Assembly (NCBI GenBank): GCA_937868765.1
Contig: CALMNL010000003.1
Span: 62,001-126,000 of the forward strand
Length of the DNA: 64,000 nucleotides
Direction: 5' to 3'
Origin: an uncultured Desulfatitalea sp.
GTDB taxonomy: Bacteria; Desulfobacterota; Desulfobacteria; Desulfobacterales; Desulfosarcinaceae
This document shows positions 17,763 through 20,255 of this stretch, piece after piece. Every line of letters starts with the position of its first letter. Position 1 is the stretch's first letter. The notes below the pieces were generated by a model. It was not told the DNA's origin. It saw only the letters and a list, made by a program, of their open reading frames with translations, and ran no database searches. Position numbers and translations under genes: made by a program.

Positions 17763-18966
17763 GGGAGGACAAGATGGCCAAGGCAAAATTTGAGAGAAAG
17801 AAGCCCCATGTCAACGTAGGGACCATCGGTCATATTGATCATGGCAAGACGACATTGACGGCAGCGATCACCAAGCACAATGGGTTGAGAGGCCGTGCGG
17901 AGTTTGTGCCGTTTGATCAGATCGACAAGGCGCCCGAGGAGAAGGAGCGCGGTATCACGATTGCCACGGCGCATGTGGAGTACGAGTCCGAAAACCGTCA
18001 TTATGCCCATGTGGATTGTCCGGGGCACGCGGACTATATCAAGAACATGATCACGGGAGCCGCCCAGATGGACGGCGCGATTCTGGTGGTGGCGGCCGAC
18101 GACGGTCCCATGCCCCAGACGCGGGAGCACATTTTGCTGGCGCGTCAGGTGGGTGTGCCGCGCATCGTGGTATTCTTGAACAAGTGCGACATGGTGGACG
18201 ATGCGGAGCTGATCGAGCTGGTGGAGCTTGAGTTGCGCGAGCTGTTGACCAAGTACGAGTTTCCCGGGGACGATACGCCGATCATCCGTGGCAGCGCGCT
18301 CAAGGCGCTGGAGAGCGACGATCCGGAGAGCGCCGAGGCCAAGTGCATTTTCGAGTTGATGAATGCCATCGACACGTTCATTCCCGAGCCCAAGCGCGAC
18401 ATCGACAAGCCCTTCCTGATGCCCATCGAAGACGTGTTCAGCATTTCGGGTCGCGGCACGGTTGTGACCGGTCGCGTGGAGCGTGGCATCATCAAGGTGG
18501 GTGACAACGTGGAGATCGTGGGCATCCGTCCGACGTTAAAGACGGTGTGCACGGGCGTTGAGATGTTCCGCAAGCTGCTGGACGAAGGTCGGGCGGGCGA
18601 CAACATCGGCGTATTGCTGCGCGGCACCAAGCGTGAGGAAGTCGAGCGCGGCCAGGTCGTGGCGGTGCCGGGCACGATCACGCCGCATACCAAGTTCAAG
18701 GCCGAGGCGTACATTTTGAGCAAGGAAGAGGGGGGGCGCCACACGCCGTTCTTCAACGGGTACCGGCCTCAGTTTTACTTCCGGACCACCGATGTGACCG
18801 GTATTTTGAACCTGCCCGAGGGCGTGGAGATGGTGATGCCGGGGGACAATGTTGCGATCACGGCCGAGCTGATTACGCCGATCGCCATGGAAAAAGAGCT
18901 GCGCTTTGCCATCCGCGAAGGCGGACGGACGGTCGGCGCCGGTGTGGTGAGCGAAATCATCGAGTA
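17763..18966 (+). repeat. Long direct repeat, copy 1 (tuf gene and its ribosome binding site)
   Basis: About 1204 bases that recur at 32752-33955 with no difference in the segments I compared. Identity begins 11 bases before the ATG (at GGGAGGACAAG) and stops inside the stop-codon region, where the two copies become unrelated. Such sharp borders around the coding sequence are the mark of gene conversion between paralogous tuf genes. Confidence 0.9.
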
Positions 18967-18967
18967 A
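17774..18967 (+). CDS. tuf: Elongation factor Tu, copy 1
   Basis: 397 residues. GTPase that brings aminoacyl-tRNA to the ribosomal A site. The P-loop GHIDHGKTT, switch [10 protein letters not shown] and the NKCD guanine-specificity motif are all present, followed by the two beta-barrel domains. GGGAGG lies five bases before the ATG at 17774; a start six codons upstream has no support. The gene ends the tRNA block and is followed 18 bases later by rpmG, so it belongs to the tRNA-tuf-rpmG-secE-nusG transcription unit. It is identical to the copy at 32763. Confidence 0.98.
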
Positions 18968-18985
18968 TAACCAAGGAGTCGACAG

Positions 18986-19135
18986 GTGAGAGTAATCGTA
19001 ACGCTGGCATGCGGCGAGTGCAAACGCCGCAATTACACGACGACGAAAAACAAGCGGACTACGCCAGACAAGCTGGAGTTCAGCAAGTACTGTCCGTTCT
19101 GTCAGAAACATACGCCTCATAAGGAAACGAAATAG
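18986..19135 (+). CDS. rpmG: 50S ribosomal protein L33, zinc-binding type
   Basis: 49 residues from a GTG start with AAGGAG seven bases upstream. Small protein of the large subunit near the E site. It carries two CxxC pairs (ACGEC near residues 9-12 and CPFC near 36-39), so this is the zinc-binding (C+) form. Its place between tuf and secE is the usual one in many proteobacteria. Confidence 0.96.
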
Positions 19136-19167
19136 CTTGATACGGCACGCTAAAGTGTCGACGGTGC

Positions 19168-19246
19168 AGGCCGGTTGCTCGAATGGCAGCGCATCGGACG
19201 CCAAATTCAGGGGCGCTGGGGGGAGCGTCTCCCCCCTGGCCTGTCA
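19168..19246 (+). pseudogene. Degenerate tRNA-Trp (CCA)-like locus
   Basis: 79 nt at the spot between rpmG and secE where tRNA-Trp is normally found. A seven-base acceptor helix survives (AGGCCGG with CTGGCCT), and segment lengths up to the anticodon match tRNA-Trp: GCTC and GCGC D-stem halves and the loop CGCCAAA with CCA at the anticodon. Key features are lost: position 33 is G instead of the universal U, the anticodon stem TCGGA/TTCAG has only weak pairing, the T-loop lacks the TTC core and is replaced by a G6/C6 hairpin, and the 3' end is TCA rather than CCA. I read it as a decayed tRNA-Trp gene; a strongly divergent functional tRNA is less likely. Confidence 0.55.
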
Positions 19247-19333
19247 AGCCGATCCGAAGGGGCTGGGGGATTGATACGCGAACGATCGCTCTTAGGGGGG
19301 ACACCCCCGACCGACTGATCGACGAGGAGTGGC

Positions 19334-19705
19334 ATGGGACGGATACTTAAAAAGAAGGACCCTGAAAAAAAGAGGGCCCAGCGCCTGGAAAAAGTAGGTG
19401 ATGCATCCTCCGCCACCCAGGCAGGGACGGAAGACGGCCAGGCCAAGCCAGCAGTCGCAATTAAAAAAGCGCCGGTTATTGCCAAGCCGAAAACGCCGGT
19501 GCCGGTCGGCGAAAAGAACCTTCTGGATAAAAGCATCCAATTCCTGCGGGAAGTCAAAATCGAGCTGAAAAAGGTCACTTGGCCTTCCCGCAAACAGACG
19601 ATGGGGTCCACCCTGGTCGTTATCATACTGGTTATGATAATTTCACTCTTTTTGGGGGTCGTCGACTTCAGTCTTTCGAAACTGATACAGGTCGTGCTTC
19701 CATAA
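19334..19705 (+). CDS. secE: Preprotein translocase subunit SecE
   Basis: 123 residues. The conserved SecE core is at the C-terminus: an amphipathic helix with REVKIELKKVTWPSRKQ, then a single membrane helix (STLVVIILVMIISLFLGVVD). Before it lies a charged, Lys/Ala/Pro-rich stretch of about 60 residues of low complexity, without the extra two membrane helices of E. coli SecE. It clamps SecY in the inner-membrane translocon. GAGGAG lies five bases before the ATG, and nusG follows 19 bases after the stop. Confidence 0.95.
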   Translation: MGRILKKKDPEKKRAQRLEKVGDASSATQAGTEDGQAKPAVAIKKAPVIAKPKTPVPVGEKNLLDKSIQFLREVKIELKKVTWPSRKQTMGSTLVVIILVMIISLFLGVVDFSLSKLIQVVLP

Positions 19706-19724: not shown

Positions 19725-20255
19725 GTGGCACTTAGATGGTACATCGTTCACGTCTATTCCGGTTTCGAGAATAAGGTCAAGGCCTCACTGGAAGAGCGCA
19801 TCGCCATCTCACCCAACCCTCAGAAATTCGGCGAGGTGCTGGTCCCTACCGAAGAGGTAGTGGAGTTGGTAAAGGGTAAACGGCGTACCTCGGCGCGAAA
19901 GTTCTACCCAGGGTACTTGTTGGTTAGAATGGAGCTGGATGATGAGACCTGGCACATTGTGAACGACACCGCCAAGGTGACCGGCTTTCTCGGGGGGCGG
20001 GACAAACCTACGCCCTTGACCGACGAGGAGGCCGATCGAATTCTCAATCGCATGGAAGCCGGAAAGCTCAAACCGCAACCCAAGTACTTCTTTGAGACCG
20101 GCGATGAGGTGCGGGTCATTGACGGCCCCTTCACCAACTTCAATGGCACCGTTGAAGAGGTCAATCAGGAGAAGGGCAAGATCAAGGTTCTGGTGAGTAT
20201 TTTCGGACGATCCACTCCGGTGGAACTGGACTTCGTACAAGTAACCAAGCTATAA
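19725..20255 (+). CDS. nusG: Transcription termination/antitermination factor NusG
   Basis: 176 residues from a GTG start. The N-terminal NGN domain (ALRWYIVHVYSGFENKV) binds RNA polymerase, and the C-terminal KOW domain (FETGDEVRVIDGPFTNFNG) binds Rho or ribosomal protein S10. Length is close to the 181 of E. coli. The secE-nusG-rplK order is universal in bacteria. There is no insertion between the domains. Confidence 0.97.
   Translation: MALRWYIVHVYSGFENKVKASLEERIAISPNPQKFGEVLVPTEEVVELVKGKRRTSARKFYPGYLLVRMELDDETWHIVNDTAKVTGFLGGRDKPTPLTDEEADRILNRMEAGKLKPQPKYFFETGDEVRVIDGPFTNFNGTVEEVNQEKGKIKVLVSIFGRSTPVELDFVQVTKL

Follow-up and report, generated by a model that had tools for sequence, protein, structure and literature searches.

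A decayed tRNA-Trp gene between rpmG and secE in a Desulfatitalea genome that carries an intact tRNA-Trp(CCA) gene elsewhere

The window, i.e., the whole stretch of 64,000 nucleotides analyzed here, corresponds to C3:62001-126000 of the genome of an uncultured Desulfatitalea sp. (G000 hereafter; 5.36 Mb in 18 contigs, estimated to be 100% complete and 2.02% contaminated). It carries the gene order trnT-trnY-trnG-trnT-tuf-rpmG-relic-secE-nusG-rplK (gene names being read from the translations), in which the relic is a segment of 79 nt located on the + strand at positions 19168-19246. Its upstream neighbor is rpmG (18986-19135, + strand), which encodes bL33 and is 93.9-100% identical across eight genomes of the genus, and its downstream neighbor is secE (19334-19705, + strand), itself followed on its 3′ side by nusG (19725-20255). 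Besides a G6/C6 hairpin located within the relic (19218-19236, + strand), the rpmG-secE spacer includes a second G5/C5 hairpin (19295-19308, + strand), 25 nt before the start of secE. The pattern G5-N(3-9)-C5 fits at just these two places of the 64 kb window. The match count for this pattern (n = 4) was attained in 12 of 100 shuffled versions of the window and is therefore unremarkable; the closeness of the two hairpins may be unusual. No promoter-like site was found in positions 18900-19400, and the two terminator-like sites detected there (0.7 expected) are both on the - strand.

The first-pass annotation of this locus, made from the sequence alone, described the segment as a decayed tRNA-Trp having a seven-base acceptor helix, a CCA anticodon, a G at position 33, a poor anticodon stem, no TTC T-loop and a TCA end, and all these features were found again. 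The acceptor strands (AGGCCGG and CTGGCCT) can form seven pairs, of which 6:67 is a G-U pair. The anticodon loop CGCCAAA (19199-19205, + strand) includes the CCA anticodon at 19201-19203 and a G instead of a U at position 33 (19200). The anticodon stem (TCGGA/TTCAG) carries a C28-A42 mismatch and two G-U pairs, one of which is 27:43, which can thus still pair. Additionally, the D-stem pair 12:23 is broken by the change of A23 to C; the GG of the D-loop is kept. The T-loop reads AGCGTCT in place of TTCGAAT, and the 3′ end reads GTCA, the CCA end being lost. The proposal that a G6/C6 hairpin has replaced the T-arm had to be refined: the hairpin exists but occupies the T-arm's own place, since alignment to the tRNA model gives five pairs, all G-C, closing a loop of 7 nt, the sixth C belonging to the acceptor strand. 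The energy model alone favors a hairpin of eight pairs with a 3-nt loop, together with six acceptor pairs. U33 and the T-loop are needed for tRNA function, and the canonical cloverleaf with U33 and a TTC T-loop that characterizes a functional tRNA-Trp(CCA) was not found in the relic.

End-to-end alignment with tRNA-Trp revealed 60-62 identical positions out of 76, i.e., 14-16 substitutions, and a gain of 3 nt relative to the nearest intact operon copies, which are 76 nt long. This likeness is not due to chance, since the score of the global alignment between the relic and tRNA-Trp (41.5) is far above those of all 5000 dinucleotide shuffles (mean -4.0, maximum 10.5). Among the 44 tRNAs detected in the genome, tRNA-Trp is the nearest to the relic (score of 39.5, the next one reaching 11.0), with 62 identities compared to 55 for the best of the 43 other tRNAs aligned with tRNA-Trp. 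A covariance model built from 27 intact tRNA-Trp genes gave the relic a score of 51.6 bits (E 6e-12), a value that is not specific of tRNA-Trp, as the same model gives 57.2-60.8 bits to three intact tRNAs of other specificities located in the window. Ten intact tRNA-Trp genes outside the model-building set score 93.7-106.7 bits; the seven intact copies of the genus (102.5-107.6 bits) were all used in building the model and are not an independent yardstick. The relic is not among the five tRNAs that ARAGORN detects in the window. It is reported neither by the Rfam tRNA model, even at E values up to 10 (positions 19050-19400, where the sole Rfam match is a weak Clostridiales-2 RNA with 15.2 bits for a cut-off of 58.6), nor by a BLAST-type search using an intact tRNA-Trp copy at E values up to 1e-3. 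As judged from these comparisons, the segment 19168-19246 is a tRNA-Trp by descent and not a recognizable working tRNA.

Errors of sequencing or assembly affecting a normal tRNA gene would have to account for all 14-16 substitutions and for the 3-nt gain, in the middle of a contig and between open rpmG and secE frames; the site is moreover devoid of an intact gene in three other genomes, and such errors are extremely improbable. The relic could also be a functional, highly divergent tRNA. Some tRNA-Trp(CCA) with an anticodon stem of only 4 bp are expressed, can be functional and can read UGA (PMC13092985), and a figure legend of this paper lists tuf, rpmG, secE, nusG and rplK among the neighbors of these variants. 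The relic resembles them by its altered anticodon stem and by the presence of the same genes nearby in some genomes, and it has kept the CCA anticodon, the acceptor helix and the GG of the D-loop. However, the variants studied in PMC13092985 lack pairing at the top of the stem but are otherwise tRNA-like, whereas the mismatch of the relic is internal and accompanied by several other lesions (G33, loss of TTC, broken pairs 12:23 and 28:42, TCA end); the combination of a single unpaired top pair, a 7-nt loop and an otherwise normal tRNA was thus not found. As a normal tRNA-Trp is furthermore present in the genome, we consider it very unlikely that the relic still acts as a tRNA.

Pseudogenes of tRNA are a known kind of element in bacteria and tend to exceed live genes in length (PMC9858662, PMC8450103). 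The relic is similar to them in being derived from a tRNA, in its lower covariance score, in its broken pairs and loops and in its length (79 nt compared to 76 nt); in other words, it descends from a tRNA, has lost functional features and coexists with another gene predicted to be able to supply the function. It differs in having an identified parent operon position, identified intact orthologues and an identified replacing copy. It is therefore a well-resolved new example of an already known kind. Our literature search found no paper dealing with bacterial tRNA pseudogenes together with tRNA-Trp.

The genes rpmG and tRNA-Trp have been assigned to the ancestral secE operon, on the basis of Gammaproteobacteria and Bacilli (PMC8046335). 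SecE was found in 51 of the 60 genomes compared, 26 of these 51 belonging to the family, and a tRNA-Trp lies at the rpmG-secE site in 47 of the 51: 22/26 in the family (according to ARAGORN) and 25/25 in the other genomes of the order (according to matches; ARAGORN was run on nine of these 25, all intact, the 16 others having a match only). The proposed conservation of tRNA-Trp between rpmG and secE was thereby borne out, and the comparison of this gap in relatives showed the gene in most of them and a decayed copy in four genomes (G000, G010, G004 and G013, the latter belonging to another genus). Among the 30 loci that were fetched and analyzed by ARAGORN, 27 carry a tRNA-Trp at the site, the misses being G000, G010 and G004; in G010, ARAGORN calls a tRNA devoid of readable anticodon, the loop being one base short. 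For the remaining 21 genomes, the locations of the matches to SecE and to tRNA-Trp were compared by hand: the tRNA-Trp match adjoins secE in 20 of them (four of which were confirmed by ARAGORN), the exception being G013. A further set of 80 loci (kept out of 128 found), which overlaps the 60 genomes, includes 76 loci with a tRNA-Trp at the site; two of the four misses appear to correspond to G010 and G004, and two are contigs that begin inside secE or the tRNA. The hypothesis that the relic is a newcomer at this site was rejected, as 47 of 51 genomes carry a tRNA-Trp exactly there. Compared to the intact operon tRNA-Trp genes, the relic has the same position, orientation, acceptor sequence and CCA anticodon but has lost U33, the pairs 12:23 and 28:42, the T-loop sequence and the CCA end, and is undetected as a tRNA.

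The first-pass annotation predicted that the original tRNA-Trp had died and that a functional copy must exist elsewhere. A search with Rfam and ARAGORN corroborated this prediction by revealing a single intact tRNA-Trp(CCA) gene in G000, a 76-mer located at C4:959097-959172. Both RF00005 and ARAGORN detect 44 tRNAs in this genome, and the anticodon CCA was read only once, at this C4 locus, the anticodons being read by ARAGORN on stretches around every Rfam tRNA match. The pattern CTCCAAA occurs 446 times in the genome, too often to be discriminating. The list of tRNAs is devoid of tRNA-Ala(UGC) and tRNA-Ile(GAU). Since 16S is matched only once, by a partial sequence (model positions 9-873) located close to the end of its contig (C6:645932-646824), the rRNA operon is probably incomplete in this assembly and these two tRNAs were probably lost with it; a further tRNA-Trp located in an unassembled stretch could be missing as well.

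The 76-mer of this second copy is 100% identical in G000, G008, G009, G010 and G001, and this identity in five genomes argues for a strong selection on it. A hybrid histidine kinase gene directly adjoins the second tRNA-Trp in G008, G010 and G001; the distance between them is about 3.5 kb in G009 and 6.6 kb in G000. In the latter, the block of ORFs separating the intact tRNA-Trp from the kinase gene (C4, about 952500-959000; L036 1500-8100) seems, on visual inspection, to encode two-component regulators and a transporter. In genus g3 (G012 and G018), the kinase gene lies directly beside a tRNA-Trp that is 99% identical, and in G006, a second tRNA-Trp (96%) is located about 10.5 kb from the same hybrid histidine kinase gene. 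In G002, G003, G005, G007 and G004, no tRNA-Trp was found in the short flanks of the kinase gene (about 1.5 kb), which also miss the second tRNA-Trp of G000, G006 and G009. Arrival of the second copy on a mobile element was also considered but gained no support, no integrase being seen by eye among the surrounding ORFs. As the 76-mer is unchanged in four congeners and its locus is found in another genus as well, the second copy appears to be older than the decay of the operon copy.

The four decayed sites form a graded series according to the covariance model: 75 bits for G010, 51.6 for G000, 46.9 for G004 and 13.3 for G013. The score of G013 (E 0.17) is at noise level, and its relic, which is shorter and has no recognizable acceptor helix, was called by its position and by a short shared core; the sole tRNA-Trp found in this genome lies on another contig. 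The less decayed relic of G010 (C410:13624-13698; L038) has lost one base from its anticodon loop, shows a change on both sides of pair 28:42 (C-G to A-U) and scores 43.6 bits with Rfam, above the cut-off. Three of the four genomes with a decayed site have a full tRNA-Trp elsewhere. In G004, the other tRNA-Trp is represented only by its final 29-30 nt, at the end of a contig, and was found through a looser cut-off applied to the genus; as the ORF beside this fragment resembles one near rpmB in G002 and not the kinase gene, the fragment may belong to a copy different from the kinase-linked one. A tree of SecE-NusG-RplK groups G000 and G010 as sisters (84), G004 with G001 and G009 (73), and G013 with G023 of genus g4 (98); several of its nodes are weak (from 48), and G011, which belongs to another genus, falls inside the genus of the window. 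Since the relics of G000 and G010 share no identical change in the 33 columns of a hand alignment, these two sisters may have decayed separately.

Decayed sites were found in 4 of the 22 genomes carrying another full or partial tRNA-Trp compared to 0 of the 29 genomes without one (one-sided probability of 0.029, from a hand count that ignores kinship). Three of the 22 redundant genomes (G004, G011 and G031) are counted as such on partial matches, that of G011 being itself broken; without the looser-cut-off match of G004, the counts become three decayed sites among 21 genomes with another copy and one among 30 genomes without. Two further tRNA-Trp copies were observed elsewhere in the family: a broken one in G011 (C738; L212 134-214), in which the anticodon segment is repeated, and a divergent one in G025 (C92; L211 114-189) that is still called by ARAGORN.

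Taken as a whole, these results make it very probable that the relic is a tRNA pseudogene arising from differential loss after duplication, redundancy being followed by decay. An ancestor within Desulfosarcinaceae would have had a tRNA-Trp(CCA) gene in the tuf-rpmG-trnW-secE-nusG operon as well as a second one beside the hybrid histidine kinase gene. As the second gene alone would be enough to read UGG, selection on the operon copy would have been relaxed, and this copy would then have gained substitutions and indels in the lineage of the window and in G010, G004 and G013. In the lineages of G002, G003 and G005, the operon copy would be the remaining one, and the whole-genome search indeed detected a single tRNA-Trp, at the operon site, in these three genomes. 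G001 and G009, in which both copies are intact, would correspond to the expected intermediate. The simplest reading is that the two copies predate the split of the genera, their descendants losing one or the other; alternatively, the second copy could have been exchanged between genera instead of being ancestral. If redundancy followed by decay is indeed the history of this site, the genus offers a well-resolved case of tRNA gene replacement, with both-intact, lightly decayed and strongly decayed stages. It should also be emphasized that a conserved operon position is no proof of a live tRNA. Furthermore, the relic is possibly still transcribed within the operon mRNA, in which case it would yield no charged tRNA, and the relics provide a natural test of whether tRNA cutting at the rpmG-secE junction is of importance to the operon.

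The first-pass annotation also suggested, as an alternative to simple death of the gene, that the sequence now serves the secE mRNA as a structured leader or as a processing element. For example, a minihelix formed by the acceptor and the T-arm could still be cut by RNase P or another nuclease, separating the tuf-rpmG message from the secE-nusG one. The seven possible acceptor pairs (including one G-U) and the five possible G-C pairs of the T-arm would indeed form such a minihelix of 12 pairs in the tRNA register, two G/C hairpins lie close together in a single spacer, and the acceptor strands of G010 and G004 carry a single change each. However, as seen by eye, each of these two changes breaks a pair, and the energy model favors the longer hairpin over the minihelix in the tRNA register. 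The folding is unexceptional for both the relic (z -1.14, 29 of 200 shuffles being as good) and the whole spacer (z -0.95, 36 of 200), the minimum-energy folds differ among the four relic spacers, and the relic of G013 lacks any recognizable acceptor helix. Neither stability above chance nor conservation in relatives, the closest one compared being G010, was thus found, and reuse as a cis element of the secE-nusG mRNA, which gains no support from this analysis, is highly improbable.

Under independent random decay following redundancy, the relics would not be predicted to share the same changes. Contrary to this prediction, A23C and T33G are common to the relics of G000, G004 and G013, giving GCGCATCGGA(C/G)GCCAA; neither change is present in the sister G010. 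In a simulation based on the hand alignment of 33 columns, insertions being dropped, the probability that three columns are shared by three relics varied from 0.00005 to 0.004 according to the assumed G+C bias, this comparison being post hoc. In the same simulation, the number of columns shared by at least two relics was unremarkable (0.03 to 0.34), and one of the three shared columns, a T-to-G change in the D-loop, is variable in the intact genes of G026 and G027 too. The relics might not be random debris: in separate lineages of two genera, decay could have taken a common route in which A23C disrupts the D-stem and T33G removes the U-turn; we consider this unlikely. If true, the superfluous tRNA, still being transcribed, could have been under selection for rapid inactivation, or the relics could share an element of tRNA origin within the leader of secE. 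The sharing of A23C and T33G, whether it results from selection for disarming, gene exchange or chance, is regarded here as a lead only. As the three relics themselves served to define the 16-mer pattern, its matching them among 389 genomes of the order is by construction; the one further match obtained in this set, in G177, lies within a protein-coding stretch.
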